Source: an uncultured Pelagibacteraceae bacterium (GTDB lineage: Bacteria > Pseudomonadota > Alphaproteobacteria > Pelagibacterales > Pelagibacteraceae). Taken from it: a stretch of DNA of 61,645 nucleotides. Positions 23,640 to 56,075 of the stretch are shown here, piece by piece (the first letter of the stretch is position 1; every line of letters begins with the position of its first letter). Both the position numbers and the translations under genes were made by a program. Under the pieces are notes generated by a model that was given only the letters and a program-made list of their open reading frames with translations, was not told the DNA's origin and searched no databases. The DNA is taken from contig CACOQC010000003.1 in assembly GCA_902629215.1 (NCBI GenBank), positions 1 to 61,645 on the forward strand, given 5' to 3'.

Positions 23640-23700
23640 AAACCCATCTTTATTTTTCGTGCGACGTAAATATATAATTTTTTATATATATAAAATATAT

Positions 23701-23716: not shown

Positions 23717-23721
23717 ATTTT

Positions 23722-26411: not shown

Positions 26412-26451
26412 TTTTTATAATCTATTGTTATATTATATAAATATCTAGTGG

Positions 26452-26480: not shown

Positions 26481-26511
26481 ATTGACACTTAATATTAAGA
26501 AAGGGGAATAA

Positions 26512-27459: not shown

Positions 27460-27484
27460 GGTAAAGAACTATTAAATCTTTAAA

Positions 27485-27518
27485 TCTCTCCCAACTTTGT
27501 TGGGGGGGATTTTTTTTT
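27485..27518 (+). terminator. Rho-independent terminator after tmoX
   Basis: The stem TCTCCCAAC pairs with GTTGGGGGGGA (with two G-T pairs) around a TTT loop and runs directly into nine T (27510-27518). It lies 26 bp after the tmoX stop. It would allow the binding protein to be made from a short, abundant transcript separate from the downstream genes. Confidence 0.88.
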
Positions 27519-27531
27519 AAGGGAAAATTTA

Positions 27532-27993: not shown

Positions 27994-28027
27994 TTTTTTT
28001 TTGGTAAATTTTGTGTAAAATATTATT

Positions 28028-28957: not shown

Positions 28958-29022
28958 GGAGGAAAAAGATTAATAATATGGATTTAATTTCATCTTAATT
29001 TCATATAACTTAATTAAAATTT

Positions 29023-30051
29023 ATGTCTGAACCGGTAATTAAATGTGAGAATGTTTATAAAATTTTTGGAGCAAATGCCAAAAAGATGCTGAAAGATTCA
29101 AATGGCAATGTTGATGCTAAAACTTTTCAAGATAATGGATGTATTGTAGGAGTAAACAATGCCTCATTTGAAGTTTCCAAAGGTGAGATGTTGGTTGTTA
29201 TGGGTTTGTCTGGTTCAGGAAAATCGACTTTATTAAGATGTATTTCTAGATTAACTGATGCAACGGGTGGAAAAATTTTTATAGAAGGCCAAGATTTATT
29301 ACAATTAAACAACAAAGATCTCATTGATCTTAGAAGAAATAAAATGGGAATGGTTTTTCAAAGCTTTGCTTTGTTGCCACATAAAACTGTTGTGGAAAAT
29401 ATAGCGTTTCCACTTCAAATTAAAGGGGTGAAAACTGAGGAAAGTATAAGTAAAGCAATGAACATGGTTAAGTTAGTTGGACTTGATGGAAGAGAAAACT
29501 ATTTTCCAAGAGAACTTTCAGGAGGACAACAACAAAGAGTAGGAATTGCAAGATCGTTAGCTGTCGAACCAGATATTTGGTTTTTAGATGAACCCTTTTC
29601 AGCTTTAGATCCATTAATTAGAAAAGAGATGCAAGATGAATTTTTAAGACTTCAAGAAAAATTACAAAAAACAATTATGTTTATTACTCATGATTTCGAC
29701 GAAGCTTTAAAACTCGCAGATCGTATTGCAATTATGAAAGATGGTATAATTGAACAATTAGACACACCCGCTAATATTGTTTTAAACCCAGCCACAGAAT
29801 ATGTAAGAAAATTTACTGAGGAAGTTCCTAGAGAAAAAGTTTTATTAATCAAAGATGTGATGGATTCATCCAAAGAAAATCTTGGCGATTTAAAGGTTTC
29901 AAAAGATGAAGTTATAGAAAATGTTGCTGAAAAAATTCTTACTCAAGAAAAGTCTGTAGCTGTAATTGATAATAATAATAATGTTATTGGTTCTATTAAT
30001 CCTGCTAAAATAATCAATACAGTATTTGGAGGAAGGAAAAGTAATAACTGA
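29023..30051 (+). CDS. tmoW: TMAO ABC transporter ATP-binding subunit
   Basis: ATPase of the ProV/OpuAA group, 342 aa. Walker A is GLSGSGKST near residue 65, the Q-loop lies in MGMVFQSFALLPH, the signature is LSGGQQQRVG near 165, and Walker B is IWFLDEPFSALD near 185. The C-terminal region (about 270-342, including VAVIDNNNNVIGSINPAKI) resembles a single CBS-type motif used by betaine transporters for sensing. The permease gene follows 2 bp later. Assignment to TMAO rests on the tdm, tmm and tmoX context. Confidence 0.85.
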   Translation: MSEPVIKCENVYKIFGANAKKMLKDSNGNVDAKTFQDNGCIVGVNNASFEVSKGEMLVVMGLSGSGKSTLLRCISRLTDATGGKIFIEGQDLLQLNNKDLIDLRRNKMGMVFQSFALLPHKTVVENIAFPLQIKGVKTEESISKAMNMVKLVGLDGRENYFPRELSGGQQQRVGIARSLAVEPDIWFLDEPFSALDPLIRKEMQDEFLRLQEKLQKTIMFITHDFDEALKLADRIAIMKDGIIEQLDTPANIVLNPATEYVRKFTEEVPREKVLLIKDVMDSSKENLGDLKVSKDEVIENVAEKILTQEKSVAVIDNNNNVIGSINPAKIINTVFGGRKSNN

Positions 30052-30053
30052 TT

Positions 30054-32207: not shown

Positions 32208-32264
32208 ACAATTTTAAAATAAATATAACAATTCAATCTATACAATTTTATTTCGTTGATTAGA

Positions 32265-32582
32265 TTAATCGCAATTTTTTTTAGATTTAAGTCTAGTTAA
32301 ATGATTTATTCTATCGTCGGCTGCTCTTATTGCTTCATTCGCATTCATTTGTGTTGCAACCATTCCTGGTAACCAGAATAATAATGCACCAACATTTGTT
32401 GCTGTTCCAAGACTTTTTTCTGCTTTAGCATCTCTTTTAAAATTTGAAGCTATGGCAATTTCATTATCAAGTTCAGAACATGACATTCTATTATCATTAG
32501 GACCCACAACTGTTACGACATGAGGAGTTGCACATGAAGCAACAAATACGAGTATAAACAATGTTGATATAATTTTTTTCAT
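32265..32582 (-). CDS. Small lipoprotein (105 aa)
   Basis: The N-terminus MKKIISTLFILVFVASC is a textbook lipoprotein signal with lipobox VASC (Cys17). The mature domain has a second Cys pair (RMSCSELD, KKNCD at the C-terminus) and a weakly hydrophobic stretch ATNVGALLFWLPGMVATQM that may be a membrane-contacting segment. It is convergent with tmoV (57 bp apart), and the spacer contains an imperfect hairpin followed by T-rich sequence. The function is not recognised. Similar small lipoproteins with an internal hydrophobic segment are common in proteobacteria. Confidence 0.75.
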   Translation of the reverse strand: MKKIISTLFILVFVASCATPHVVTVVGPNDNRMSCSELDNEIAIASNFKRDAKAEKSLGTATNVGALLFWLPGMVATQMNANEAIRAADDRINHLTRLKSKKNCD

Positions 32583-32680
32583 AAGTTTTTATATAAAATT
32601 TATTTTTTTAATACAAACAATTTTTTTTAAAAAATTCAACTTAAAGTTTAATTTATATAACTTTTATAATAATATTATTG

Positions 32681-34009
32681 TTATTCTAAGAAAGTTTTCG
32701 ACGAGTCATCCATAGCTGTTGCCCATGGGGTATGATGAATTGGAGCAACAGAGCCAGTCACTGGAGATGAAAAGGATTTATTTCTATAAGTTAATATGTT
32801 CTCAACTTTATGATGTTCCCATTCTTTAAAATGTTTTCTAATTAATTCAAAATCAATTTTTGGATAATCTGACATTTCATGAAGTTCTTTTGTATATTCA
32901 GTTTGAAAATCAATCATTTGATCTGGATTTTCTAATTTTTCTTCCATAGCAACCCATTTATTTATGTCATTCTCAATTTCTTTATCATTTGGTATTTTAA
33001 TTTTACTCATTATTACATCTCTTGCGTACCAAGCCTGACAATCAAACATATTAAATGTATGAAATTGATCTTGCATGCCAAGATATAAAAGTTTGTGATT
33101 ATCCTGCCAAACAACTCCTTTGTATAGTTTTGGCGGGTATAATCTATTTCTAGTTTTTAATTTTAAACTCTCTTCTAAAAAAGGAAAATGATGAAGATAA
33201 CCAGTGCATAAAATTACAACATCTGCTTCTTGTTCTGTACCATCTTTAAAAATTGCTTTTTTACCTTCCAATTTATCAAGGTAATGAACTTCTTTCATTC
33301 CTTTTGGCCATTTAAATCCCATAGGATTATGTCTGTATCCTATTGTTACACTTTTGGCCCCGTACTTGTTGCATTGCAGTGCAACATCTTCAGCAGAATA
33401 ACTACTTCCTAAAACAATTACATTTTTATTTCTAAATTCTTCTGCATCTCTAAAATCATGAGAATGCATAATTCTTCCAGGAAAAGAATTCATTCCTTCA
33501 TATTCTGGAATGAAAGGAACTGAAAAATGTCCAGTGGACACTACTACAAAATCAAAATTATCTTTTAATATTTTATCGTTAACCTTGTCTTGATAACTTA
33601 CTTCGAATTTATCATTCTTAAAAGTTGTTCCTACTACTCTAGTATTGAATTTGATTTTACTTTTCATCTTTCCCTTACTTAATCTTCCAATGATATAGTC
33701 ATATAAAACTGCTCTAGGAGGAAAAGACGGAATAGGTTTTCCAAAATGTTCATCAAATGAATAATCTGCAAATTCTAAACATTCTTTTGGCCCATTTGAC
33801 CAAAGGTATCTATACATACTGTTATGCACTGGATCTCCATATTGATCAGAACCAGTTCTCCAATTATAGTTCCATAATCCTCCCCAATCTTCTTGTTTTT
33901 CAAAACAAACTATTTCGGGAATCTTCTCACCATTTTTTTCAGCTAATTCAAATGCCCTGAGCATAGACAGTCCACATGGTCCAGCTCCTATTATTGCTAC
34001 TTTTGTCAT
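32681..34009 (-). CDS. tmm: Trimethylamine monooxygenase
   Basis: Flavin-containing monooxygenase that uses NADPH and oxygen to convert trimethylamine to TMAO. The 442 aa protein has the FAD motif GAGPCG at residues 8-13, an FMO-type FPGRIMHSHDF segment, the NADPH motif VLGSSYSAED near 193-202 and the CTGYLHHFPF block. Long stretches (DPVHNSMYRYLWSNGPKE, FADYSFDEHFGKPI, MFDCQAWYARDVIM) are distinctive of bacterial Tmm as I remember the Methylocella and Roseobacter proteins. Tmm together with tdm and tmo genes in one region gives very strong support. Confidence 0.95.
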   Translation of the reverse strand: MTKVAIIGAGPCGLSMLRAFELAEKNGEKIPEIVCFEKQEDWGGLWNYNWRTGSDQYGDPVHNSMYRYLWSNGPKECLEFADYSFDEHFGKPIPSFPPRAVLYDYIIGRLSKGKMKSKIKFNTRVVGTTFKNDKFEVSYQDKVNDKILKDNFDFVVVSTGHFSVPFIPEYEGMNSFPGRIMHSHDFRDAEEFRNKNVIVLGSSYSAEDVALQCNKYGAKSVTIGYRHNPMGFKWPKGMKEVHYLDKLEGKKAIFKDGTEQEADVVILCTGYLHHFPFLEESLKLKTRNRLYPPKLYKGVVWQDNHKLLYLGMQDQFHTFNMFDCQAWYARDVIMSKIKIPNDKEIENDINKWVAMEEKLENPDQMIDFQTEYTKELHEMSDYPKIDFELIRKHFKEWEHHKVENILTYRNKSFSSPVTGSVAPIHHTPWATAMDDSSKTFLE

Positions 34010-36294: not shown

Positions 36295-37073
36295 AACATA
36301 TTTTAATTGTTGAGGGAAATTTAAGAGAGGAAAATCAAAATTTTTCAAAAGTTGGAATTCAAACTCATACAGAAAGTTTAAAGGATAGCCTTGCTTATTT
36401 CACTAATGAACTAAAATTTGATGTTGTTAATCCATCATCAGATCAAAATATTCATTCAATATCTGACAAACTTGAAAATTATGATGGTCTAATATGGGGA
36501 GGCAGTAGCTTAAATATTTATAACGATACTCCAGAAATAAGAAAGCAAATTGAATTTATGAAAGATTGTCAAAAAAAAGTAAAAAAAATTTTAGCTATTT
36601 GCTGGGGTATGCAAGTAGCAGTAACTGCTGCTGGGGGTCAGGTTAAAAAAGCAAATAATTCGCATATTGGTATAGCAAATGAAATTGAAGTAAATGAGAA
36701 TGGAATAAGCCACCCTCTTTATGTAAACAAAGATAAAAAATTTAATTCTCCTGCTTTTAATTTTGATGAAGTTGTAAAATTACCAAAAAATGCGATTTGT
36801 TTAGCATCAAATAAGATAAATAAAATACAAAGTCTGTACTTTAAAACGAATGAAACTAAGATTTGGGGACTGCAATATCATCCGGAGATAACTTATGAGA
36901 AAATGATAAGCTTAATTGAATTTAGAAAAGATAAGTTGATTGAAAATAGAAAAGTTTTTAAAGACATAGAAGAAGTTGAGAAACATATTTCATTTATTAA
37001 AAAAGAAATTTTGGTAACTAACAGAGAAAAAAGAATGTTAGAATTAAAAAATTGGCTCAATCAATTAAATTAA
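36291..37073 (+). CDS. Class I glutamine amidotransferase domain protein
   Basis: Stand-alone class I GATase of 260 aa, similar in layout to the glutaminase half of GMP synthase. The nucleophile Cys104 lies in [10 protein letters not shown], and the His-Glu pair of the triad in [11 protein letters not shown] near 190. [15 protein letters not shown] near 70 matches the substrate-channel segment. The last 60 residues are a charged helical extension. It overlaps the iron alcohol dehydrogenase by 4 bp and converges on fhs with a 4-bp overlap. It lacks any synthase partner, so it may hydrolyse a gamma-glutamyl amide rather than glutamine (inference). Confidence 0.8.
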
Positions 37074-38755
37074 AATAAGCCTTCTATTTCACCCTTATTG
37101 TTTAATTTGATTGAGTCAGCAGCTGGTACTCTTGGTAGACCTGGCATTGTCATTATCTCTCCACAGACAACAACAATAAACTCTGCACCTGATGATAATC
37201 TTACTTCTCTTACTGGTAGTACATGTCCAGTTGGAGCTCCTTTAAGATTAGGATCCGTTGAAAAACTGTACTGAGTTTTAGCAATACATACTGGAAGATT
37301 TCCATAACCTTTTTCCTCAAAATCTTTTAATTGTTGTCTTGTTTTAGTATCAGCAACAACTTCACTGGCATGATAAATTTCTTGTGCAATCTTTTCAATT
37401 TTTTTAAATAGAGGCAATTTATCTTCGTAAAGATATTTAAAAGTATCTTTATTTTCTTCACAAATTTCAACTACATTTTTTGCTAATTCTTTAGCTCCTT
37501 CTCCTCCATTAGACCAATGTGTACACTTTGAGGCTTTCACTCCTTGAGTTTTGCAAAAATCAAGTAAGGCATTCATTTCTTTATCAGTGTCAGTTATAAA
37601 ATGATTTACAGCAATAGTAACAGGTAGACCAAATTTTCTAGTATTATTAATGTGTCTTTCTAAATTAATTAAACCTTTTTTTAATGCATCAACATTTTCT
37701 TTTTTTAAATCATCTTTTGCTACACCGCCATGCATCTTAAGAGCTCTTATCGTTGCAACAATAACTACACAATCTGGTTTAATTCCTGATTTTCTGCATT
37801 TGATATCTAAAAATTTTTCAGCTCCAAGGTCAGCACCAAATCCTGCTTCTGTAACAACATAATCTGATAGTTTAAGACCTGCTTTTGTTGCAATCACAGA
37901 ATTGCATCCATGGGCTATGTTTGCAAATGGTCCACCGTGAATGATTGCTGGATTGTTTTCTAATGTTTGAGTAACGTTTGGTCTGATTGCTTCTTTTAAA
38001 AGAACTGTCATTGGACCTTGTGCGTTTAAGTCTTTTGCATAAATTGCTTTTTTGTCTCTTGTGTATGCAATCGTAATATTGCCAATTCTTTTTTCTAAAT
38101 CATTTAAATCTGTAGCAAGGCAAAATATAGCCATGATTTCTGAAGCTACCGTTATATCAAAGCCATCCTGTCTCGGATAGCCGTTAGCAACACCACCTAA
38201 GTCAACTACAATAGATCTTAAAGATCTATCATTCATATCCATAACTCTTTTCCAAACTACTCTTCTAACATCTATATTAAGTTTATTCCCCCAATAAATA
38301 TGATTATCAATTAATGCTGAAAGTAAATTATGCGCCGATGTTATTGCATGAAAGTCACCAGTGAAATGTAAATTAATTTGCTCCATAGGAACAACTTGAG
38401 CATAACCTCCACCAGCTGCACCACCTTTCATTCCAAAAGAAGGACCTAAACTAGGTTCTCTCAAACAAACAATGGATTTTTTTCCAATTTTATTTAACCC
38501 ATCATTTAGTCCAACTGATGTTGTTGTTTTTCCCTCACCTGCTGGAGTTGGTGTTATTGCTGTTACCAAAATTAGCTTTCCATCTTTTTTACTTTTTATT
38601 CCATCTAAATATTCTAAGTTTATTTTTGCTATATGACGTCCCATTGGGCTAAATGCAGAACTTTCATCTGGGACATTAATCTTAGCTAAAATGTCTTTGA
38701 TTGGTTGCATTTTAGCATTTCTTGCTATTTGGATGTCTGATTTAACTTCGCTCAT
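37070..38755 (-). CDS. fhs: Formate-tetrahydrofolate ligase
   Basis: Interconverts formate, ATP and THF with 10-formyl-THF. At 561 aa it is the normal bacterial length. The P-loop is [16 protein letters not shown] near residue 69-84. Other conserved blocks are [19 protein letters not shown] near 98, HFTGDFHAI near 130, and [13 protein letters not shown] near 280. In SAR11 it can run in the ATP-forming direction on formyl-THF derived from demethylation. It is divergent from the soxBDAG-type operon across 128 bp, an arrangement that links methyl-group oxidation to formate release. Confidence 0.96.
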
Positions 38756-38883: not shown

Positions 38884-40140
38884 ATGCAAAAATATTCAAT
38901 ATTTAACCTGATTAAAAACGCCTTTTCTAATCATGAAAAATGGGATTTAGCTTGGAAAGACCCATCTCCTAAAAAAGAGTATGATGTAGTTATAATCGGT
39001 GGCGGAGGTCATGGTTTAGCAACAGCCTATTATTTGGCTAAAGAACATAAGATTACAAATGTTGCAATTATTGAAAAAGGATGGATCGGTGGAGGTAATA
39101 TTGGAAGAAATACAACAATCATTAGATCAAACTTTATGTACGATGATAACGCAAGATTTAATGAATTTGGAATGAATTTATGGCGAAACATGAGTCAGGA
39201 GCTAAATTTTAATGTCATGTTTTCTCCAAGAGGAATAATTAATTTAGCTCACTCAGATGCACAAATGAATGCCTATGCTCGTAGAGGTAATTCAATGAGA
39301 TTAAATGGAATAGATGCAGTTTTGTTAAACAGAGAAGAAGTCAAAAAAATTATTCCAATGGCGGATTTTTCAGAGGATGTTAGATATCCAATTTTTGGTG
39401 GTTTAGCTCAACCAAGTGCGGGCACGGCAAGACATGATGCAGTCGCATGGGGTTACGCACGTCAAGCTGATTCAATGGGAGTTGATATAATTCAAAACTG
39501 TGAAGTAACTGGGTTTGATGTTTCTGGTGGAAAGATTCAAGGGGTGAGAACTTCGAGAGGAGACATTAAAACAAAAAAAATTGGTCTTTGTGTTGCTGGA
39601 AGCACAAATGTTTTAGCAGACAAATTAAATATTACATTACCAATTGAGACTCATCTTTTACAAGCTTGTGTCTCAGAACCAGTCAAACCTGTTTTAGATG
39701 GAGTAGTTACGTTTGGTGCAGGACATTTTTATATTAGTCAATCAGATAAAGGAGAGATGGTAATGGGAGGTGATTTGGATGGATATAATAGTTATGCACA
39801 AAAAGGTAATTTACCGACTATTCAACATGTATTAACTGGTGGTATCGCCCTATTTCCTTTTTTAAGTAGATTAAAGATGCTTAGAACTTGGGGAGGTATA
39901 ATGGATATGTCAATGGATGGATCTCCAATAATTGATAAGACACATATTGACGGATTATATTTAAATTGTGGTTGGTGTTATGGAGGTTTTAAATCTGTCC
40001 CATCTTCAGGATGGACTTTTGCCCATACAATTGCTCAAGATAGAGTTCACGAATTAAATGAAGGTTTTAGTTTAAATAGATTTTCAAAAGGATATTTGTT
40101 AGACGAAAAAGGCCTGGGAACAAAAACTTGGATTTCATAA
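38884..40140 (+). CDS. soxB: Sarcosine oxidase/N-methylglutamate dehydrogenase beta subunit
   Basis: Flavoprotein subunit of 418 aa in the heterotetrameric amine oxidase family. The FAD motif GGGGHGLATAYYLA is at residues 39-52, followed by EKGWIGGGNIGRNTTIIRS. His184 in TARHDAVAWG aligns with the covalent-FMN histidine of the family as I recall it. SoxB and MgdA are close homologues, so the substrate may be sarcosine or N-methylglutamate. It is the first gene of four, directly followed by soxD. The ATG at 38884 follows an AT-rich, TATAAT-like leader. Confidence 0.9.
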   Translation: MQKYSIFNLIKNAFSNHEKWDLAWKDPSPKKEYDVVIIGGGGHGLATAYYLAKEHKITNVAIIEKGWIGGGNIGRNTTIIRSNFMYDDNARFNEFGMNLWRNMSQELNFNVMFSPRGIINLAHSDAQMNAYARRGNSMRLNGIDAVLLNREEVKKIIPMADFSEDVRYPIFGGLAQPSAGTARHDAVAWGYARQADSMGVDIIQNCEVTGFDVSGGKIQGVRTSRGDIKTKKIGLCVAGSTNVLADKLNITLPIETHLLQACVSEPVKPVLDGVVTFGAGHFYISQSDKGEMVMGGDLDGYNSYAQKGNLPTIQHVLTGGIALFPFLSRLKMLRTWGGIMDMSMDGSPIIDKTHIDGLYLNCGWCYGGFKSVPSSGWTFAHTIAQDRVHELNEGFSLNRFSKGYLLDEKGLGTKTWIS

Positions 40141-40410
40141 ATGCTATATATTAAATGTCCATTCTGTGGATATAGATCACAAAAAGAATTTGCTTATGGT
40201 GGAGATGGAACAGTAAAAAGACCAGAGTTAAATCAAGATATATCTGATGAAAAATGGAATGAGTTTGTTTATTTAAGAAAAAGTCCTAGAGGAAAGCATG
40301 TAGAGTTATGGCATCATGTAGCTGGCTGCAGACAATGGTTTAAGGTTCAAAGAGATACCGTTACTCATGAAATTTTTCAAACTACAAAAATGAATGAAGA
40401 AATAAAATGA
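40141..40410 (+). CDS. soxD: Sarcosine oxidase delta subunit (zinc-binding)
   Basis: Small subunit of 89 aa that binds a structural zinc. The N-terminal IKCPFCGYR gives Cys6 and Cys9, and the later VELWHHVAGCRQWF supplies His and Cys ligands. DxxDxxWxxFxYLRxxPRG-type residues (EKWNEFVYLRKSPRG) are typical of SoxD. The gene has no spacer on its left side and a 4-bp overlap with soxA, so it is translationally coupled to both neighbours. Confidence 0.92.
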   Translation: MLYIKCPFCGYRSQKEFAYGGDGTVKRPELNQDISDEKWNEFVYLRKSPRGKHVELWHHVAGCRQWFKVQRDTVTHEIFQTTKMNEEIK

Positions 40411-43403
40411 GTCAATCACATCGTATTATTAATGAGGGTTTATTAAATAGAAATAAAGAAATATCTTTTAAGTTTAATGGTAAAAAGTACACTGGATATG
40501 AAGGTGATACATTAGCCTCAGCTTTACTTGCAAATGGTGTTCATTTAGTAGGAAGAAGTTTTAAATATCATAGACCAAGAGGTTTTTTTGGTGCTGGTGT
40601 TGATGAGCCTAATGCAAAATTACAGATTCAATTAAATGGTCATTCTGAACCTAATGTTAATGCTACAGAATTTGAGTTAGTTGAGGGTATAGAGGCAAAA
40701 AGTCAAAATTGTTGGCCTTCAGTAGAATTCGATGTAGGAGCTATAAACAATTTTTTAAATAAATTTTTTCCAGCTGGTTTTTATTACAAAACTTTTATGT
40801 GGCCAAAAAGTTTTTGGTATAAAATTTATGAGCCATTTATTAGAAAAGCAGCTGGTCTTGGTGTTGCTTCAACAGAGAAAGATAAAGAAAGATATGAACA
40901 TAAATATGAATATTGCGACTTATTAGTTGCTGGATCTGGTCCTGCTGGTTTATCTAGTGCATATGCAGCAGCAAAAAATGGTGCAAAGGTTATTCTTGCT
41001 GAAGATAAACCAAGATTTGGTGGTTCTTTATTAACCGATGAGGTAACCATCGATAATTTATCAGGTAAAGCTTGGACAGATAAAATTATTACTGAGTTAA
41101 AAGAGATGCCAAATGTCATAGTTAAAAATAGATCGCAAGTGTTTGGCTATTATGATCACAACATGACAGTTATGTTTGAAAGAACAGGTGATCATTTAGA
41201 AAATAAACCTAAATACACTCCAAGACAGAGATTGTGGTATATCAGAGCTAAAGAGGTTTTATTGTCTACAGGTTCAATAGAAAGACCTATAGTTTTTGGA
41301 AACAATGATACGCCTGGAATATTTTTGTCTGCTGCTGCTAAAGAATATATAAAAGTCTATGGAGTATTAGTCGGTAAGAAGCCTTTAATATTTACAAATA
41401 ATGATAGTGCATATGAAACAGCTTTAGAATTTAAAAAACAAGGGATAGATCCAATTATTTTAGACACAAGAGAAGAGCATTCATCTGAATTAATAGATGC
41501 AGCTAAGAGTCAAAATATACAAATAAAATTTTCTCATGCGGTAATAACAGCAAATGGGTATAGAAAAGTTAAATCAGCACTAATTGGTAGATTGAATAAA
41601 GAAAAAACAGAATTTGAAAATTCTGAAACTGTTGAGTGTGACTGCATTTGTGTTTCTGGTTTTTGGACACCAACGGTTCATTTAGCGTCACAATCTGGAA
41701 ATAAACTTAAGTTTGATGATCGAATAGATGCTTTTGTACCCAACAAATCAAAGCAAAATGAAACATCTGTTGGAGCCTCTAAAGGTACTTTTACGTTAAA
41801 AGAAACTTTAAATGACGGATTTAGATCAGGATTTGATCTTTCAAAAAAGATTACAAATAATAATAACTCTAGCTCTATACCAAATTCAAATGAAACTAAA
41901 AAAAATCCACATGATAAATTTTGGTGTTCACCTTTACCTAAAAATAAAAATTTTAAGCGATTTGTAGATTTTCAAAATGATGTAGCTGTATCAGATATTG
42001 AAGTTGCATTACGCGAGGGTTACAGATCAATAGAACATGTTAAAAGATATACAACATTAGGTATGGCAACTGATCAAGGTCGTACCAGTAATCTTAATGG
42101 ACTTCAGTTAGTTGCAAATGTTGAAAAAAAGATAGTTCCACAAGTTGGTCATACAACTTTCAGACCACCATTTACTCCAATTACAATTGGTACAATTGTT
42201 GGAAGAGAAGTTGATATGGAATATATGCCAACAAGAAAAACTCCAATGCATACATGGCATGAAAAAAATAATGCTGTTTTTGTCGATGCAGGTGCTTGGA
42301 AAAGACCAAGGTATTACAAACAAGGAAATGAAAATTTGTTTGAAGCTTCAAAAAGAGAAGCAAGAAATGTTAGAGAGCATGTTGGTATCTGTGATGTAAC
42401 AACACTTGGAAAAATAGATATAAAAGGACCCGATGCAGCAGAATTTTTAAATAGGGTTTACACAAATGCATGGTTAAAACTTCCTGTTGGTAAAGCGAGG
42501 TATGGAGTTATGCTGAGAGAAGATGGAATAGTGATGGATGATGGAACAACCACTAGAATTTCAGAAAATCATTATCATATGACTACTACAACTGCACAAG
42601 CAGCAAATGTCTTGTCTCATCTAGAATATTATCTTCAAGTTGTATGGCCTGAACTGAAAGTTAATGTTTTATCAACAACAGAACAATGGGCAGGAGCTGC
42701 GCTAGCTGGACCAAAGTCTAGAGATGTATTGGCAAAGTTATTTCCTGATTTAGATGTAAGTAATGAGGCTCTTCCATTTATGGGTTATATAGAAGGGAAT
42801 TTATTTGGAGTAAAAGCAAAAATATTTAGAATTTCGTTTTCTGGAGAATTGGCTTATGAAATAAATGTTGAATCGGGTTATGGTCTATTCATGTGGGAAA
42901 AAATGATGGAAATTGGAAAAGAATTTAAAATTCAACCATATGGAACCGAAGCATTATCAACTTTAAGAATAGAGATGGGTCATGTTGCTGGCCCTGAATT
43001 AGATGGAAGAACCATTCCTTATGATGTTTCTTTAGAAGGATTAGTGTCTAAGAAAAAAGATTTTATTGGCAAAAGATCTTTACAAAAAGAAGCTTTTAAT
43101 AATTCTGATAGACAAAAAATTGTTGGCTTGGTTCCTACGGATAAAAAAACTAGTATTCCTGAAGGATCACATCTTGTGGTAGATAAAAATGCCAAATTAC
43201 CAAATCCAAAATTAGGACACGTTTCTTCATCTTGTTGGAGTGTAGAAAATAATAATCCATTCTCTTTAGCAATTGTAAAGGATGGAAAAAATATGATTGG
43301 TAAAAAATTATTTGCTGTATCACCTTTAAAAAATACTTCGATAGAGGTGGAAGTAATTTCATCTCATTATGTTGATCATGAAGGAAAGAGAGTACGATCA
43401 TGA
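40407..43403 (+). CDS. soxA: Sarcosine oxidase/N-methylglutamate dehydrogenase alpha subunit
   Basis: Large subunit of 998 aa. The N-terminal domain ([20 protein letters not shown], residues 34-53) is the ferredoxin-like part. The NAD/FAD domain contains [19 protein letters not shown] near 172. The C-terminal third is a GcvT-like folate-binding domain ([16 protein letters not shown] near 675, [17 protein letters not shown] near 810), where the formaldehyde product is captured as 5,10-methylene-THF. It overlaps soxD by 4 bp and soxG by 4 bp. NMG dehydrogenase MgdC has the same layout, so both names fit. Confidence 0.92.
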
Positions 43404-43984
43404 CACAAATTTCACCACTAAATTTTGTTCATAAAGTTGGAAAATTTGGTGATCATGAGGGAAAAAATAAAAATGATTTATTAAAAGTTTCAGAGGTAAA
43501 TGGATTATTAATATTTCAAATTGCACAATATAAAAATTCTAGTTTTGATATTTCAAAGATTAAATTAGATGGTTTGAGTCTTCCATCTTCATTAAATTCG
43601 ACTTCAAACTTGAATACTAGAATATTATGGTTCGGTCCTAATTGTTGGTTAGTTTTTTCATCTGATTTAGATCTTATTGAAAAAGAAAAAAATCAGTTTA
43701 GTGAGACAGTTTTTGCAATTACTGATATTTCACATTCGAGAACAATAATCGAATTAGAAGGAAGTTTAGTAAACGAAGTACTTAAAAAAGGATGTCCATT
43801 AGATATTAGCTCTTTAAAAGCGGGAGATTGCGCAAATTCAGTTTATAATGGAGTGACTATAACAATTGATTTTATTTCAGAAAATCCAAAGAAAGTTAGA
43901 ATATTAGGCTTAAGAAGTTTTGGAGAGTCTTTGCATCATTCTATAACTGATGCTTGTTTAGAATTTGGATATAAAGCTATTTAA
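43400..43984 (+). CDS. soxG: Sarcosine oxidase gamma subunit
   Basis: A 194 aa accessory subunit with a degenerate GcvT-like fold. Family features include [11 protein letters not shown] near 75, [29 protein letters not shown] (cited by its start [10 protein letters not shown]) near 112, and a C-terminal [16 protein letters not shown] segment. It completes the B-D-A-G order typical of heterotetrameric sarcosine oxidase operons. The stop is 1 bp from the convergent EamA transporter. Confidence 0.87.
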
Positions 43985-48614: not shown

Positions 48615-49580
48615 ATGAGATTTAGAATTGACAATCTTCAATACTGTAATTGGACTAGAGAAGTTTTTAAAATTAATAGAGAAGCTGGTCTTGATGCAGT
48701 GCACGTTACAATAGTATATCATGAGGATTTTAGCGAACTAAATGAACAAATTAAAAAATGGCAAAAATTATTTGAAGATAATTCAGATTTAATTTTTTTA
48801 GGTAATAGTTTTAAAGACATAGAAAAAGCTAATAGTCAAAAAAAAACTGCTATTTTTTTTGGTTTTCAAAATTGTTCACCCATTGAAGATGATATAAATC
48901 TAGTAGAAAAGGTTCATCAATTAGGCTGTAGGTTTATGCAGTTAACTTATAACAATCAATCTTTATTAGCGACAGGTTGCTATGAAAAAGTTGATAGCGG
49001 AGTAACAAATTTTGGCAGGGAGGTAATCAAAGAAATGAACAGAGTTGGTGTTGTTATTGATATGTCTCATTCAGCAGAAAAGAGTACTTTTGATGCCATT
49101 GAACTTAGCGAAAAACCAATTGCTATCACTCATGCTAACCCATCTTTTTGGCATGCAGCAAAAAGAAATAAATCCTCGGAATTATTAAAAACATTAAGTG
49201 ATAGTGGTGGTATTTTAGGATTATCTCTTTATCCACATCATTTAAAAGATAACACAAATTGTACGATAGAAAGCTTTTGTGAAATGGTAGCAAAAACAGC
49301 TGATATAATGGATATAAAAAATATTGGGATTGGTTCAGATCTTTGTTTAAATCAACCAGATGAAGTTGTCGAATGGATGAGAAATGGAACCTGGTCAAAA
49401 AATAAAAATTATGGAGAAGGTTCAAAAAATAAACCAGGATTTCCTAAACAGCCTGATTGGTTTGAAGATGCAAGAGGTTTTAAAAACTTAGAAACAGGTT
49501 TAAAAAAAGTTGGTTTTTCAGAGACTGAGACTAATGGAATATTAGGTAACAATTGGTATAATTTTTATAAAACAATTTAG
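48615..49580 (+). CDS. Membrane-dipeptidase (M19) family protein
   Basis: Amidohydrolase-fold protein of 321 aa. Family blocks are MQLTYNNQSLLATGC near 115, GVVIDMSHSAEKS near 151, AITHANPSFWHA near 175 and IGIGSDLCLNQPDE near 238. The classical N-terminal zinc motif (DGHND) is replaced here by LDAVHVTIVYHED, so one metal ligand differs and the site may hold a single zinc or different chemistry. It is the first of four closely packed plus-strand genes. M19 relatives cleave dipeptides with a D-residue or amide bonds in small metabolites. Confidence 0.85.
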   Translation: MRFRIDNLQYCNWTREVFKINREAGLDAVHVTIVYHEDFSELNEQIKKWQKLFEDNSDLIFLGNSFKDIEKANSQKKTAIFFGFQNCSPIEDDINLVEKVHQLGCRFMQLTYNNQSLLATGCYEKVDSGVTNFGREVIKEMNRVGVVIDMSHSAEKSTFDAIELSEKPIAITHANPSFWHAAKRNKSSELLKTLSDSGGILGLSLYPHHLKDNTNCTIESFCEMVAKTADIMDIKNIGIGSDLCLNQPDEVVEWMRNGTWSKNKNYGEGSKNKPGFPKQPDWFEDARGFKNLETGLKKVGFSETETNGILGNNWYNFYKTI

Positions 49581-49582
49581 AT

Positions 49583-51250
49583 ATGAATGTAGAATTAAGG
49601 GATCCTAATATTATAATGAAGTTAACAAGACTTGGTTCTTTTCATCAATCAAGATTATCTTTTTTAAGAAGTTTTTTAAGTGAATTTAAAGACTGGAAAT
49701 ATAAAAGAGATTTATTCGATTTAGATCAAGAGGGTTATGGCACAGCAGTATATTCATTTAAAAAAAATGCAAGGGTCTATTCTTTAATTTGTTATGCTAA
49801 CAAAATTAACGACGATGAAAGATCAGATAGAGTGATTGCAACTAAATGGGATGCAGCTTTTACACTACATGATGGTGTTCCTTTAAAGGATGATATTGAA
49901 AGATTAAGAAATGAAGTTCCAAAACAAGAAGTTGGTAGATTGTCTTACAAAGAACTAACATTATCTAGAGCAAATAAGTCTGTTAGGGTATTTGACCATG
50001 TTGTTGAAAGCTTAAGTAATGGCAATCAACCAAATTTAGAGCTACTTGAAAAAGTTGGATATTTATACAGAACTACAGCAGTTTATGGATCAGGTAAGTT
50101 TGGTTTAGCAGATCGATTTAGAATACAAAATAGAGAGGAAATTAATGGACCGTTTAGATTAGAAATGATGCTGGTTTATTTGGTAAGACAATTCACATTT
50201 GATCAAGTTAATCATGTTGCGCAAAATAGAAATCCTAAATTAGCTGTTAAACTAGATCCTGAAATTTGCAGAAATTTGGGAATAGGAAATTCAACTGGAT
50301 TAGGAATGGCCCCGTTTATTGTTAACCATCCAACTTTACTTAATAATTGGATACTTAGTAGGGAAATAGCACTCAAAAAAATTAGAGAAATTAAAATTGT
50401 TAAAACTAAAGATAAAGATTTATTTAAAGACTGTGTGAAAAATTCTCTTAAAAATATTACTAGCTGGAATACAGAAAGTGAATATCAACTCAAAAAAATT
50501 AAACTTTTGTTAAATGATATTAGAAAATTTATTAATTTTTTAGATAATGAATTTAATTTTCAAAAAGATTATCCTTTCAATGAAATTTATCTTTGGTTAG
50601 AGAAAGAGACTTGTGAGGAGTGTATTGAATACGTTGTCTCAATTATGATGGAGCCATATGGTGATATAGTTCGGCCATTGATTGGGCAGATGAGCTCTGA
50701 AGAAGAAAAATACTTTAACATTCCAACTGAGCGTAATGTGGGAGATTTAAAGAAGATTTTAGAGAATAAATATTCATATATTCTAAAAATTAATTTTAAA
50801 ACAAAAGGAAGTAATCAAAAATTTTGGTTTATATCAAAAAATAAAGAAGAGCCAAGATTAGCTAATCGTTTTGAAGAAAATGGTGCGGATTTAGAACAAC
50901 CTCTGGCAATAGCAAGAGATATAAAAAAATTATATGAAAGACTATTGCCTTTAAAAGATAATTTAAAGATTAATCAATTTTTAATTGAGAATTCTGATTT
51001 AAGACATGTTGTTAGAAGAGCTTTTATTATCGAAAAATTTCCATATTCTGAAATACAAGATAACACTATTGGAGAAAATTTAGTTCCAATTGATATGTTA
51101 CGATTAAAATTATCTTTTTTTGGAGCTTTAAAATTTGATCCAAGATCTGACAAGTGGTTGAGAATATGCATGTTTCAAGGTGCGCCACTCCCAAATGAAT
51201 TAAAAGATTATGATGAGCAATGGGTTTATAAACCCAGTTTTAAATTATGA
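49583..51250 (+). CDS. Unrecognised 555 aa protein of the dipeptidase/DUF3726 unit
   Basis: A large soluble protein without signal peptide or membrane helices. It has no motif I can name. Visible points are an N-terminal LTRLGSFHQSRLSFLRSFL helix, a central RLEMMLVYLVRQFTFDQVNHVAQ stretch (cited by core LVYLVRQFTFDQVNH, about 200), a CEECIEYVVSIMMEPYGD region near 340 with a Cys pair, and a C-terminal KWLRICMFQGAPLP. It starts 2 bp after the dipeptidase and overlaps the DUF3726 gene by 4 bp, so it is almost certainly functionally linked to both. Function unknown. Confidence 0.8.
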   Translation: MNVELRDPNIIMKLTRLGSFHQSRLSFLRSFLSEFKDWKYKRDLFDLDQEGYGTAVYSFKKNARVYSLICYANKINDDERSDRVIATKWDAAFTLHDGVPLKDDIERLRNEVPKQEVGRLSYKELTLSRANKSVRVFDHVVESLSNGNQPNLELLEKVGYLYRTTAVYGSGKFGLADRFRIQNREEINGPFRLEMMLVYLVRQFTFDQVNHVAQNRNPKLAVKLDPEICRNLGIGNSTGLGMAPFIVNHPTLLNNWILSREIALKKIREIKIVKTKDKDLFKDCVKNSLKNITSWNTESEYQLKKIKLLLNDIRKFINFLDNEFNFQKDYPFNEIYLWLEKETCEECIEYVVSIMMEPYGDIVRPLIGQMSSEEEKYFNIPTERNVGDLKKILENKYSYILKINFKTKGSNQKFWFISKNKEEPRLANRFEENGADLEQPLAIARDIKKLYERLLPLKDNLKINQFLIENSDLRHVVRRAFIIEKFPYSEIQDNTIGENLVPIDMLRLKLSFFGALKFDPRSDKWLRICMFQGAPLPNELKDYDEQWVYKPSFKL

Positions 51251-51858
51251 AATCTTTAAGTGAGATAGAAACTACAGCTAAAAGAGCAAGTCGGGCAGCT
51301 GGATATTCGTGGGGTATAGCAGAGGAAGTTGGAAAATCTATAAGAATATCAGAATTATTTGGTTTTCCAGGAATTAAACATCTAAATCAATACTATCAAA
51401 ATAAAAAAAAAAAAAATTTTGAAGAGATAAAATTAATCAATAAGATTAACAAATCAGATGGACCATCATTTTGTCCAATTATATTGGGCGTTAATTTTAT
51501 TGATCAAGTGAAGAATGTTGAAACTTTAACAAAGTGTTCAGTTGAAAATTTAGCTTATCCATTGTTACTTTTGCCCTTTTTAAGTAGAGGTTCAGAAATT
51601 ATTGGAAAAAAATTATTTATTTCATTTGATGATTGTAAATTTTTATTGAATTTTAATGTTAGTATTTCCTCTAATTTTTGGAATAAAGAAATACCAATGC
51701 TAGCAAATCAAATAGAAATAAGCTTTCTAAACAATGAAGATAATTTTTCTGATCAAGATTGGAAAAGCCTCTATAAACTTGCAGAGGATACATTTGTAGA
51801 AGAAACAGACAGTTTAAAAGAGGGTGCAGCAGGTGCTGGCTTAACTGATAATGATTAA
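51247..51858 (+). CDS. DUF3726-type protein (203 aa)
   Basis: The N-terminus SLSEIETTAKRASRAAGYSWGIAEEVGKS matches the start of DUF3726 proteins as I remember them: alternating Glu, Ala-Lys-Arg-Ala and Gly-x-x-x-Trp-Gly-x-Ala-Glu-Glu (cited by core AAGYSWGIAEEVGKS). The rest is a mixed alpha/beta domain ending in a KEGAAGAGLTDND tail with acidic residues. It overlaps the 555 aa gene by 4 bp and the tiny Cys-pair gene by 8 bp. Domain function is unknown in any organism to my knowledge. Confidence 0.75.
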   Translation: MKSLSEIETTAKRASRAAGYSWGIAEEVGKSIRISELFGFPGIKHLNQYYQNKKKKNFEEIKLINKINKSDGPSFCPIILGVNFIDQVKNVETLTKCSVENLAYPLLLLPFLSRGSEIIGKKLFISFDDCKFLLNFNVSISSNFWNKEIPMLANQIEISFLNNEDNFSDQDWKSLYKLAEDTFVEETDSLKEGAAGAGLTDND

Positions 51859-52012
51859 AGAAGAAGATTTTAACGAAAAAGATTTGAAGGAATTAGATGA
51901 TATATGCGATGAGTGTAAAGAAAAAGATGAAAGTGTTTCTCAAAATTTAATATTAACAGGTTTTAAAATTTGCAAATCTTGCAGAGTATCTAAAACTATT
52001 TTTCCAATTTAA
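51851..52012 (+). CDS. 53 aa zinc-ribbon-like microprotein
   Basis: A short complete frame from ATG at 51851 to TAA at 52012. It contains two Cys pairs, CDEC (residues 19-22) and CKSC (41-44), with spacing suited to a small zinc ribbon. The N-terminal half is acidic (KEEDFNEKDLKELDD). The start overlaps the DUF3726 stop by 8 bp, and the stop overlaps the convergent YIP1-like gene by 4 bp. Both overlaps and the paired cysteines argue against a chance frame. It may be a metal-binding partner of the dipeptidase unit. Confidence 0.6.
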   Translation: MIKEEDFNEKDLKELDDICDECKEKDESVSQNLILTGFKICKSCRVSKTIFPI

Positions 52013-52699: not shown

Positions 52700-54058
52700 T
52701 TAACCTTTTACTACTTCTCTTGTATTTGCGTTGAAAGACTCTTTAAAAGGAATATCAACTATAACTGCATCCACAGGTTTTCCTGGAGTATCTGAGTATT
52801 TCTCAGGTAAATGCACCTTGTATTTTGTGCCAACTTTACCTTTTGGAAAACCATTAGAATTAAGTGTTCCATCAAATGGAACATATCCCATGGCTATATT
52901 AGTTTTCTTTTCAGGGTGATACCATGGTGAAGTTATAAATCCTACAGGGTCACCACCATTTTCGTTTGATATTAACCAAAAATCTGGAGCATAATCATCA
53001 ATTGGTTTTCCACCAAGTTCAAAACCAACTAATTGTAATTTATATGGTTTTTTACCAGCTTTAATTTCAGCACCCATTTTTTCTAAAGCAGCTTTACCAA
53101 CATAATCGGATTTTTTATTCCATTCACCTTTTCCAGATAAAGAAACTTGATAGCCCAAATTACATTGATAAGGATTGTGTTGTTGATCCATATCTTGTCC
53201 CCAAGAAAGAATTCCAGCTTGAATTCTTCTATGGTGTGCTGGTGCTATAACCATTAAATTATGTTTTTTTCCTGCTTCAAGAACTGCATTCCACATATCA
53301 TCAGCATACAAAGTTGCATCTCTTAAGTATATTTCATATCCAGCTTCTCCAGAAAAACCGGATTGAGAAATTACACAACTTCTACCTGCAACTTTTACTT
53401 CAGCTAAACCATAGAATGGCATATTTTCTAAATCAACTTGATCACCTAATAAATCTTTCATTAATGCTTTTGATTTAGGACCTTGAATTTGAACAGGACA
53501 TGCATCTATTTCTTCGACAGTACAATTGAATCTTCCGTCAGCATTAACTCCTTGAAGATACATTCCAATATCTGAGTCTGATAAAGAGAACCAAAACTCA
53601 TCTTGTGAAATTCTTAAAAGAATAGGATCATTCAATACTCCACCATAAGCATTACATAAAATTACATATCTAGCTCTCATAGGAGAAATTTTTGTTGCAT
53701 CTCTTGTGATTACGTAATCAACAAATTTTTCTGCATCAGGACCCTTTACTTGAATTTGTCTTTCAACAGCAACATTCCACATTGTTACATGATTTACGAT
53801 AGCATCATATTCTACCATTGCTCCACCGTCTTCAGGCTTCACATAACCTCTTGGATGATAAATACGATTGTAAACTGTAGCTCTCCAACAACCTGCCTGC
53901 ATTGATAAATGCCAATAAGGAGATTTTCTCACCCTTGTTGAAATTAACATTTCAACTTTAGTTGGCCCACTTTGTCTTAAATTGTATGGTACTTTTCGAT
54001 CTGATTGATCAACAGAAGTAACATGTTTTAGTTTAGTATAGTCAAATTCTTTAGACAT
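52700..54058 (-). CDS. DmdA-like GcvT-family folate-dependent demethylase
   Basis: A 452 aa GcvT-fold protein, longer than the DMSP demethylase DmdA. Blocks shared with my memory of Pelagibacter DmdA are WNVAVERQIQVKGPDAEKF (about 95), NDPILLRISQDEFWFSLSDSD (cited by NDPILLRISQDEFWFSLS, about 145) and NPYQCNLGYQVSL (about 295). AAGGAG at 54066-54071 is 7 nt from the ATG at 54058 but only 1 nt from one at 54064, so I use 54058. It would transfer a methyl group to THF, and the adjacent MetF-like gene supports that. The substrate is unknown: DMSP, a betaine or an O-methylated compound are all possible. Confidence 0.85.
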   Translation of the reverse strand: MSKEFDYTKLKHVTSVDQSDRKVPYNLRQSGPTKVEMLISTRVRKSPYWHLSMQAGCWRATVYNRIYHPRGYVKPEDGGAMVEYDAIVNHVTMWNVAVERQIQVKGPDAEKFVDYVITRDATKISPMRARYVILCNAYGGVLNDPILLRISQDEFWFSLSDSDIGMYLQGVNADGRFNCTVEEIDACPVQIQGPKSKALMKDLLGDQVDLENMPFYGLAEVKVAGRSCVISQSGFSGEAGYEIYLRDATLYADDMWNAVLEAGKKHNLMVIAPAHHRRIQAGILSWGQDMDQQHNPYQCNLGYQVSLSGKGEWNKKSDYVGKAALEKMGAEIKAGKKPYKLQLVGFELGGKPIDDYAPDFWLISNENGGDPVGFITSPWYHPEKKTNIAMGYVPFDGTLNSNGFPKGKVGTKYKVHLPEKYSDTPGKPVDAVIVDIPFKESFNANTREVVKG

Positions 54059-54824
54059 AACCATTCTCCTTCAACCACTTGTTAGTTTCCTTCAAGCCGC
54101 CGAATGTATAAATGTGGAAGAAATCAGTATGCGATTTAACTTTCCCAATTAAATCATTAGGGTCTTTAGGTTTTAATAAATCTAACGCCTTACTAAAATT
54201 AGATTTAAGAAAATTTAAGGAATTTTTTGCTCCAACAATATTAGCAAATTTAATTAAGCTAGATATTTTTAGAGGTCCAGTAATTCCCACATGCACTGGT
54301 ACATTTTGTTTAGAAATAAAATCTATAATAGGCTGAGGATCTAATAACCATTGGGTTACAATATAGTCAGCATAAGGCTTTTTATCTATCATAGCTTTTT
54401 CTAAATCTGAATCGGATATATCAGGACTCCCCTCAGGGTGTCCAGCAATTCCTATTGTCATCTCCTCAAAATAACCAGTCTCTAAAAGTTGAAACGAGCT
54501 ATCAAATTTACCAAGAGGCTCTCTACCCCCACCTATAACCAAAACCTGTTTTACCCCTCCATCTTTACATCTTGAAACATAATCTTTTAACTGCTTTTCA
54601 TCATGCATCGATCGTGCTGGAAAATGAGGCACAGGATTAAAACCTTTTTTTACTAGCTCAACTGCCTGTTGAGCTGTTTCTTTATAATCTCCTCCAGGTA
54701 ACATGGTGATATAAATATCATTTACATGAGGTACAGTTGATAGATCGGTTTGGGGACCAATTTCCAAAGAAAATTTCATTTCTTGATCATTATCTTTTTT
54801 AAAAAACCTGTCAAAGAAATTCAT
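54051..54824 (-). CDS. MetF-like methylenetetrahydrofolate reductase-fold protein
   Basis: A 257 aa TIM-barrel protein resembling MetF. Typical segments are FNPVPHFPARSM near 73 (MetF has a HFPARSM-like flavin block), VLVIGGGREPLGKF near 105 and TIGIAGHPEGSPD near 134. YIVTQWLLDP near 172 and VHVGITGPLK near 195 also fit. In demethylation operons MetF oxidises 5-methyl-THF to methylene-THF. It is shorter than housekeeping MetF (about 290 aa). It is followed by the DmdA-like gene with an 8-bp overlap and is divergent from the Rieske gene. Confidence 0.87.
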   Translation of the reverse strand: MNFFDRFFKKDNDQEMKFSLEIGPQTDLSTVPHVNDIYITMLPGGDYKETAQQAVELVKKGFNPVPHFPARSMHDEKQLKDYVSRCKDGGVKQVLVIGGGREPLGKFDSSFQLLETGYFEEMTIGIAGHPEGSPDISDSDLEKAMIDKKPYADYIVTQWLLDPQPIIDFISKQNVPVHVGITGPLKISSLIKFANIVGAKNSLNFLKSNFSKALDLLKPKDPNDLIGKVKSHTDFFHIYTFGGLKETNKWLKENGYV

Positions 54825-54842
54825 TTGAAGGTGTGGCGAAAT

Positions 54843-56075
54843 ATGTTGCCAAAAATTGTGCCCATGTTAATTTTTTTTGTGGATCAAAATCTTAAAAATT
54901 TACCTTTATCAAAAGTACTAGATATAGAGAAACTTAATAATGTTAATCAACCGATAGAAATAGCTAATGGCCTACCTAATGAGTGTTATACAAAAAAGGA
55001 TTATTTTGCTTACGAAAAAGAAAAGGTTTTTTTTAACAAATGGACTGTAATTGGTGTAGCAAGCTCCATACCCAATCCTGGAGATGCCAAACCATACAAT
55101 CTACTCGGGATTCCACTAATCTTGGTAAGAGATAAAGAGATGAAGATTAGAGTATTTCATAATGTTTGTAGTCATAGAGGTTTTAAACTTTTAAATGAAT
55201 CGTGTAACTTAAAAAATGTAATCAGATGCCCTTATCATTCTTGGTCCTATGAGCTTAATGGAAAACTTATCGCTACACCACACATTGGTGGCTTAAATAA
55301 TCATAAATCAGAAAATTTTGATAAAACAAAAAGTAACTTAAAAGAGGTTAAAACAAGAGTTTGGATGGATATAATTTTTATAAATATTAATTCAAATGAA
55401 ATTGATTTTGATGAATATATTAAACCTTTAGAAAATAGATGGCAAAAATTTATAAATAAAGAAGATCATAAATCCCTAGTTCATTCAAATGATTATGGTT
55501 ATTTTAGTCTAGATGTAAATTGTAATTGGAAGTTTGCAATAGAAAATTATTGTGAGAGTTATCATTTACCAACAATTCATCCAGAGTTAAATAAAGTTTC
55601 AAATATTAATGATCATTATCACATTCAAGGATTACCCAATAGATTTGCTGGACAAGGAAGTAAAAAATATGAACAACCTGCTAAAGGAAACAAAAAATTT
55701 AATATTTTTTCCAATTGGGACAAAACTATGTTAAAAAATTCTGAGTATATCGCTTTATTTCCAAATGTAATGATAGGTTTACATTTAGATCATTTTTATG
55801 TTTTTTGGTTAGAACCTTTGTCAATGAATAAAACAAATGAACACATGCAAATATATTATGTTGGCAACGATAGTGCAAATGGTGAAGAGTTAAAAGAATT
55901 AAGAAAAGAAAATTCAAGATTTTGGAAAGATGTTATGTTAGAAGATATAAATGCAATTGAAGGAATGCAAGAGGGTAGAAATTCACCAGTTTACAATGGT
56001 GGAAATTTTTCTCCAATCATGGATCAACCAACCCATCAATTCCATAAGTGGGTAGCAAATAGTTTAATGGAGTAA
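54843..56075 (+). CDS. Rieske non-heme iron oxygenase (oxygenase component)
   Basis: Ring-hydroxylating/demethylating oxygenase alpha-type subunit of about 410 aa. The Rieske 2Fe-2S ligands are in NVCSHRGFKLL and IRCPYHSWSYELNG. The catalytic iron site is in ENYCESYHLPTIHPEL (about 240). No reductase or ferredoxin gene is nearby. The ATG at 54843 has GAAGGTG about 9 nt upstream; ATG at 54864 is a second option, and a longer frame from 54750 would run through the divergent MetF-like start, so I reject it. Possible roles are N- or O-demethylation of a quaternary amine or aromatic. Confidence 0.85.
   Translation: MLPKIVPMLIFFVDQNLKNLPLSKVLDIEKLNNVNQPIEIANGLPNECYTKKDYFAYEKEKVFFNKWTVIGVASSIPNPGDAKPYNLLGIPLILVRDKEMKIRVFHNVCSHRGFKLLNESCNLKNVIRCPYHSWSYELNGKLIATPHIGGLNNHKSENFDKTKSNLKEVKTRVWMDIIFININSNEIDFDEYIKPLENRWQKFINKEDHKSLVHSNDYGYFSLDVNCNWKFAIENYCESYHLPTIHPELNKVSNINDHYHIQGLPNRFAGQGSKKYEQPAKGNKKFNIFSNWDKTMLKNSEYIALFPNVMIGLHLDHFYVFWLEPLSMNKTNEHMQIYYVGNDSANGEELKELRKENSRFWKDVMLEDINAIEGMQEGRNSPVYNGGNFSPIMDQPTHQFHKWVANSLME

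Follow-up and report, generated by a model that had tools for sequence, protein, structure and literature searches.

A study published in Nature Microbiology in 2026 (doi 10.1038/s41564-026-02313-7) reports a conserved pathway by which environmental bacteria catabolize homarine (N-methylpicolinate); the identity of that pathway with the genes described below is unproven. The operon for homarine is reportedly named homABCDR (unconfirmed). N-methylglutamate dehydrogenase (Mgd) is reported to take part in homarine catabolism (PMC13390433), and this was the only item returned when the open-licence literature was searched for homarine catabolism, homarine degradation or homABCDR. The combination of homarine and dipeptidase returned nothing related, its sole match being an unrelated one on Vibrio natriegens. 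Here, we analyze four open reading frames (ORFs) at positions 48615-52012 of a 61,645-nt stretch (positions 1 to 61,645 of contig CACOQC010000003.1, hereafter the window) of an uncultured Pelagibacteraceae bacterium of the SAR11 group. The genome that holds the window has 1.06 Mb in 47 contigs and is 84% complete. The first three ORFs encode an M19-family hydrolase, a 555-residue protein that we call U555, and a DUF3726 protein. This three-gene catabolic core is real and widespread, and we put at roughly 0.6 the probability that it is the core of an operon for the catabolism of a betaine-type osmolyte, most likely homarine, via N-methylglutamate. There is nothing unusual about it as an operon, but the two proteins at its heart are poorly understood.

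A module of three genes

The four ORFs are the following:
48615..49580, + strand: M19-family hydrolase, 321 aa, of the PDB 2i5g-like branch (PF01244, Peptidase_M19, 241.2 bits for a curated cut-off of 26; closest solved chain 2i5g)
49583..51250, + strand: U555, 555 aa, without Pfam family or recognised fold
51247..51858, + strand: DUF3726 protein, 203 aa (PF12525, 77 bits for a curated cut-off of 22.1; Ldh_2-type fold in the predicted model)
51851..52012, + strand: 53-aa double-CxxC protein, without Pfam family, with two CxxC motifs

They are separated, in order, by a gap of 2 nt, an overlap of 4 nt, and an overlap of 8 nt. This agrees with the original prediction, made from the sequence alone, which described four tightly packed genes, the first of a known dipeptidase-type family and the third a DUF3726 protein. 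A genome scan confirmed at least 581 encoding stretches, and the best 80, all with Pelagibacter-type titles, were examined. By tblastn, all 80 have M19 and U555, 78 have DUF3726, and 73 have the 53-aa protein, some of these loci stopping inside the unit. Where the ORFs are complete (77 loci), M19 and U555 are -4 to +3 nt apart, and U555 and DUF3726 are -4 to +10 nt apart in 76 loci and 35 nt apart in the remaining one, the start of each ORF being picked as the nearest to the one expected. Among 41 relatives, counting the genome of the window, 26 have U555; when the set is restricted to the 16 genomes with a completeness of 90% or more, 10 have it.

The association extends far beyond SAR11. We searched 387 genomes of the class of the window (which we take to be Alphaproteobacteria) for both U555 and PF12525, and found the former in 57 and the latter in 46, compared with none of 14 control genomes. 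All 46 genomes with PF12525 are among the 57 with U555, and in each of them DUF3726 is immediately downstream of U555, on the same strand, with 5-72 nt between the edges of the matches. The co-occurrence has a Fisher p of about 1.5e-49 when genomes are treated as independent, an assumption that does not hold for related ones. No PF12525 match was found in 11 genomes that have U555 (G086, G102, G109, G113, G144, G255, G302, G326, G355, G366, and G397), and in some of these the U555 match is partial or divergent. DUF3726 was found only together with U555, and the two look like an obligate pair. In a sample of the phylum, U555 was found in 38 of 397 genomes, nine of them outside the class, in a group that is probably the Gammaproteobacteria. 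Phaeobacter inhibens DSM 17395 has each of the two genes at two places on one plasmid (L027, NC_018291.1). A haloarchaeon, Natrinema versiforme, also has U555, with genes for an aldehyde dehydrogenase (ALDH) and a BCCT transporter next to it and no M19 in the 6 kb scored. A search for viral copies gave 14 pattern matches, none of them a relative.

The 53-aa ORF is a true gene: both CxxC motifs are present in every one of the 51 copies examined (the window's own and those of 50 of the 73 loci), and its ratio of nonsynonymous to synonymous substitution rates is about 0.21 (26 of the 51 copies). A double-CxxC protein of 53 aa is also encoded at positions 9722-9877 of locus L184. The gene was found in 16 of the 41 relatives searched, all from one SAR11 genus. 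In one of these relatives (G016, 81% complete), the gene order is purE, the 53-aa gene, the 180-aa gene, then GcvT-like and MTHFR-like genes; M19, U555, and DUF3726 are absent from this 14-kb stretch, where alone M19 and DUF3726 were sought, and U555 is absent from the rest of the genome as well. The 53-aa gene is therefore an independent neighbour, a separation observed in this single genome, the contigs of G020 and G021 being uninformative as they end inside DUF3726. It was not found in 16 genomes of the sister family (f2), although 11 of these carry U555, nor did it match any plasmid at E up to 0.01, compared with 168 plasmid records for U555. We thus rejected the four-gene unit of the original prediction, tempting as it was, for one of three genes; its description of a small double-CxxC protein stands, its placement within the functional unit does not. 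M19, U555, and DUF3726 seem to be a single module, which a genome either has or lacks.

Genes that recur around U555

The neighbours of U555 were scored at 47 loci outside the family of the window (40 places in 38 of the 57 class genomes, and 7 plasmid regions). Within 6 kb of U555, and with profiles built from the same loci, which aids detection there, M19 was found at 42 of the 47 loci and in none of 20 other regions from 20 of the genomes (p = 9e-13), the latter being counted over their whole 20 kb, which disfavours the unit. DUF3726-type proteins (46/47, p = 4e-16), Ldh_2 (type 2 malate/lactate dehydrogenase) enzymes (18/47, p = 5e-4), and BCCT or OpuAC transporters (15/47, p = 2e-3) are also absent from all 20 control regions. 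Hence, the 555-aa and DUF3726 families do co-occur with the dipeptidase-type gene elsewhere, as the original prediction required. Taken separately, BCCT was found at 9 loci and OpuAC at 6 (0/20 for both), and the OpuA permease at 6 (1/20). The enrichment in ALDH is marginal (21/47 vs 4/20, p = 0.048) and that in LysR is weak (13/47 vs 2/20, p = 0.099). GcvT-like genes were found at 7 loci (2/20 in the control) and ABC ATPases at 15 (9/20).

Two compact operons exemplify these associations. One (L145) has the order OpuAC-permease-ATPase-ALDH-M19-U555-DUF3726, and the other, from another class of the phylum (L217), has LysR-ALDH-M19-BCCT-U555-DUF3726. The latter is one of six loci read from outside the class (L212-L217), among which the ORF picker called no DUF3726 in L213 and L215 and no M19 in L214, and L216 starts within the ALDH. 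Both cluster ALDHs tested have a 2,5-dioxovalerate dehydrogenase as their nearest model (478.6 and 504.2 bits, under the cut-off of 750), which would suit a substrate of five carbons that is both a semialdehyde and a 2-oxo compound. An ALDH only distantly related to the cluster enzyme is found in the sister family, past the unit and on the opposite strand (e.g., at 214886-216295 of G031 C2, for a U555 at 212604-214247). Divergent forms, with 24-28% identity, were found in Sinorhizobium and Variovorax.

The three proteins

The M19 hydrolase has PDB 2i5g as its best solved relative (275.6 bits with the profile). The original prediction pointed to DAVHVT as an altered N-terminal zinc motif. The alteration is genuine and is found across the subfamily, yet DAVHVT is the wrong place, as it aligns with AANCTV of 2i5g; the first strand is IDNLQY, which aligns with IDGLII (an alignment based on 2i5g alone, the Pfam match starting at profile position 42). 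Here, L8, Y10, and Q85 replace His, Asp, and Glu. L8 and Q85 are fixed in 33 of 33 cluster members, and Y10 is found in 29 of 33; the altered motif therefore marks a subfamily rather than this locus. H152, H173, and D242 are kept in all 33. If these positions have the ligand roles that we assume from the renal dipeptidase (first-strand His-x-Asp, bridging Glu, second-site His pair, and catalytic Asp), the first-strand pair and the bridging Glu are missing, and the second-site His pair and the Asp are present. These residues suggest that no more than a single metal is bound, in the second site, and we propose that the protein is a candidate amide (e.g., N-formyl) hydrolase with an altered metal site.

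The model of the DUF3726 protein has a predicted local distance difference test (pLDDT) score of 88.5, residues 195-203 being poor. With VIA-align, its 15 best entries are all of the Ldh_2 type (Z 8.6-10.3, 156-176 residues, root-mean-square deviation 3.4-6.0) and the next row has a Z of 3.6. With Foldseek, the best E is just 5.6e-3. The comparison of the DUF3726 and Ldh_2 profiles gave an E of 5.3e-4 and a probability of 30.8%, for an aligned region of about 60 residues near the N-terminal end. The protein of the window had no row with PF02615 at E up to 1, and the DUF3726 profile searched against PDB sequences gave no Ldh_2 row (best E 0.7), so the evidence for the link to Ldh_2 comes from the model and from the partners of U555 in Natrinema and Variovorax: with PF02615 (cut-off 38.8), the Natrinema protein in the DUF3726 position reaches 36.2 bits and its Variovorax counterpart 16.3 bits. 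The SHG motif (S45-H46-G47), invariant in 11 cluster Ldh_2 proteins, is missing from the DUF3726 consensus. According to the predicted model, DUF3726 has an Ldh_2-type fold without this motif, and we propose that it may be a shortened, non-catalytic partner of U555. The original prediction gave no known function for the second and third proteins; we found no description of the biochemistry of either family, and DUF3726 gave nothing in the open-licence literature.

U555 has no Pfam family, no NCBIfam match near the cut-off, and no PDB sequence match. When 44 diverse members were compared with Pfam, no family was matched in more than one of them. The U555 profile gave ten weak rows with PDB sequences, the best, at E 0.025, being V-ATPase subunit C, and the comparison with the Ldh_2 profile gave E 0.66. 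The fold prediction proposed for this protein in the original prediction was carried out with AlphaFold2, in one whole-protein run without separate folding of domains, from a shallow alignment of 61 rows (the window and SAR11 loci that are 71-94% identical to it). The resulting model is weak (pLDDT 73.0, predicted TM-score 0.78); its VIA-align rows did not exceed Z 4.8, and none of its Foldseek matches had an E below 0.37. We therefore assign no known fold to U555, although, given this model and alignment, the null search does not establish a new one. The 44 sequences have 34 invariant columns; these include 9 Arg, 8 Gly, and 2 Trp but just one His, and Cys is not among them, so a classical metal site is not obvious. 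We propose that U555 is the main ring-attacking enzyme of the pathway.

Genes for N-methyl compounds in the same window

Other features of the window may bear on the pathway:
17544-20748: mgsABC-like domains
20776-22245: gmaS-like gene
24072-26411: trimethylamine N-oxide (TMAO) demethylase-like gene (Tdm; 1078 bits, near the cut-off of 1100)
26512-32207: OpuAC/ProV-type (betaine-type ABC) transporter genes
32681-34009: Tmm, trimethylamine monooxygenase (742 bits, cut-off 675)
37070..38755, - strand: formate-tetrahydrofolate ligase (PF01268, 897 bits)
38884..43984, + strand: soxBDAG-like genes, probably encoding N-methylglutamate dehydrogenase (mgdABCD; TIGR01373 664.7 bits, TIGR01372 1325 bits, SoxD, SoxG), 4.6 kb upstream of M19

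The models matched by the soxBDAG-like genes do not separate Mgd from Sox, and Mgd is preferred on account of the gmaS- and mgs-like domains. To judge from these matches, there is an apparent trimethylamine/TMAO route at 17544-34009 and 38884-43984. Tmm, the Tdm-like protein, the betaine-type transporter, and the gmaS, mgs, and mgd domains suggest that this cell probably makes N-methylglutamate as an intermediate in any case. A short MORN-repeat protein (28028-28405) is encoded inside the transporter region.

The genes purE and purK lie 5' of the four-ORF run, on the opposite strand. On its 3' side, also on the opposite strand, are genes for a 180-aa protein, a GcvT-like protein, and an MTHFR-like protein. 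The GcvT-like (454 aa) and MTHFR-like (257 aa) genes, at 52700-54824, overlap by 14 nt and stay together in G016, G020, and G021. The former scores 232.5 bits with the dimethylsulfoniopropionate (DMSP) demethylase model, well under 410, and the pair is possibly another folate-dependent demethylase. A Rieske oxygenase follows at 54750-56075, with GbcA as nearest model (132 of 670 bits); its ORF has a TTG start and overlaps the divergent MTHFR-like gene, the true start being probably further in.

Proposed pathway and alternatives

Betaine-type transport, an ALDH, an Ldh_2 reductase, and an amidohydrolase together suggest that a heterocyclic acid bearing an N-methyl group is degraded to an amino acid of five carbons. 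From the gene linkage, the families, the predicted fold of DUF3726, the changes at the metal site, and the genes that recur nearby, we infer a substrate, an order of reactions, and a role for each protein. Homarine would be taken up by a betaine-type transporter. U555, with DUF3726 as its non-catalytic partner of Ldh_2 fold, would then attack the N-methylpyridinium ring and open it to give an N-formyl-N-methyl C5 semialdehyde, whose aldehyde group would be oxidised by the ALDH. M19 would hydrolyse the formamide to formate, for which the formate-tetrahydrofolate ligase of the window is a possible sink. One ring carbon is lost between homarine and N-methylglutamate, and hydrolysis of a formamide would account for this loss. 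Where there is an Ldh_2 enzyme, it would form N-methylglutamate by reducing the C=N or C=C bond that is left, and N-methylglutamate dehydrogenase would convert this product to glutamate and one-carbon units. In SAR11, the ALDH and the transporter would have to be encoded elsewhere in the genome.

The core very probably serves a betaine-type osmolyte, and homarine is a likely one. Several observations weigh against homarine or the scheme. None of the analyses reveals the substrate. The SAR11 unit has no adjoining ALDH, regulator, or transporter; the cluster ALDH has no close SAR11 counterpart (30-39% identity among the matches listed in the 41 relatives), and G000 has an Ldh_2 with 34% identity, encoded on a different contig. 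Neither RidA (5/47 vs 0/20, p = 0.16) nor SoxA/mgd-like genes (7/47 vs 2/20, p = 0.46) are significantly enriched near U555, and we no longer count them as independent support. Finally, U555 has no recognised cofactor-binding fold, and its model is weakest in loops with many conserved residues.

Some of the same genes would suit another betaine-type zwitterion, such as trigonelline, proline betaine, a carnitine-like compound, or a relative of DMSP, degraded by a similar opening of ring or chain, oxidation, and amide hydrolysis. OpuAC and BCCT transporters serve many such compounds, one copy of the unit in P. inhibens DSM 17395 adjoins dmd genes, and the divergent forms of Sinorhizobium and Variovorax have no cluster ALDH within 6 kb, that of Variovorax being accompanied by tripartite and branched-chain transporters; the family need not share one substrate. 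Sinorhizobium meliloti is reported to lose growth on trigonelline together with pSymA, an effect that is not shown to involve the U555 locus (PMC4207669). However, a C5 semialdehyde-type ALDH, an Ldh_2 reductase, and an amidohydrolase would better suit an N-methylpyridine-2-carboxylate than a quaternary amine needing prior demethylation, and we regard this alternative as unlikely, if worth keeping in mind. The pathway of amide or peptide cleavage envisaged in the original prediction retains its dedicated character and a possible amide step, the three genes travelling together beyond SAR11. Degradation of peptides or cyclic amides (e.g., hydantoin-like) around a true dipeptidase would fit the M19 family, the Asp/Glu/hydantoin racemase family gene 2.5 kb upstream of M19 on the opposite strand, and the amidohydrolase and ABC transporter (substrate unstated) upstream of the unit in L027. 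We consider it improbable, as all 33 cluster members have substitutions at the binuclear metal site and the enriched neighbours are betaine transporters and Ldh_2 reductases; together with the semialdehyde-type dehydrogenase and, sometimes, RidA, these point to a small nitrogen-containing zwitterion and disfavour peptide cleavage.

U555 and DUF3726 might also assemble or regulate the M19 hydrolase instead of being pathway enzymes, as the lack of an SHG motif in one and of a recognised catalytic fold in the other would allow. We give this very little credence: the 34 invariant columns of U555 in 44 diverse sequences look like the mark of a catalyst, and 5 of 47 loci have U555 with no M19 within 6 kb. 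Returning to a homarine operon with U555 as the ring-attacking enzyme, a more speculative and rather doubtful extension is that U555 and DUF3726 represent a new class of two-subunit enzymes, in which a large catalytic protein of unrecognised fold, held by a degenerate Ldh_2 subunit, dearomatises and opens an N-methylpyridinium ring. If the operon were not the published one for homarine, this would be an undescribed osmolyte pathway in SAR11, roseobacters, rhizobia, other Pseudomonadota, and a haloarchaeon. If the proposed function is right, SAR11 bacteria have their own version of a pathway that draws nutrients from an abundant plankton compound, as a module that some genomes carry and others closely related to them lack, and two annotation gaps, DUF3726 and the 555-aa family, are explained as an obligate pair.

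Comparison with known systems

If homABCDR is, as reportedly, four genes and a regulator, then ALDH, M19, U555, DUF3726, and LysR would fit it; the SAR11 unit differs from this unconfirmed description in having neither LysR nor ALDH adjoining. Mgd is stated to be a step in homarine catabolism (PMC13390433); the soxBDAG-like genes of the window may encode Mgd or Sox as far as the matched models tell. The fold matched by the DUF3726 model is that of Ldh_2 enzymes, which include the delta1-piperideine-2-carboxylate reductase 1wtj. These enzymes have about 330 residues, whereas DUF3726 has 203, with neither the SHG motif nor a PF02615 match. The canonical renal and membrane dipeptidases (1itq, 3id7, GliJ) have in common with the M19 protein of the window the family, the two later His, and the Asp; unlike them, it has the residues of the first metal site and the bridging Glu replaced. 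Its closest solved match is the M19 family amidohydrolase 2i5g, presumably PA5396 of Pseudomonas aeruginosa, encoded near glycine betaine genes (PA5396 and PA5397 gave nothing in the open-licence literature). The two proteins share the missing first-strand His and Asp and the Gln in place of Glu.

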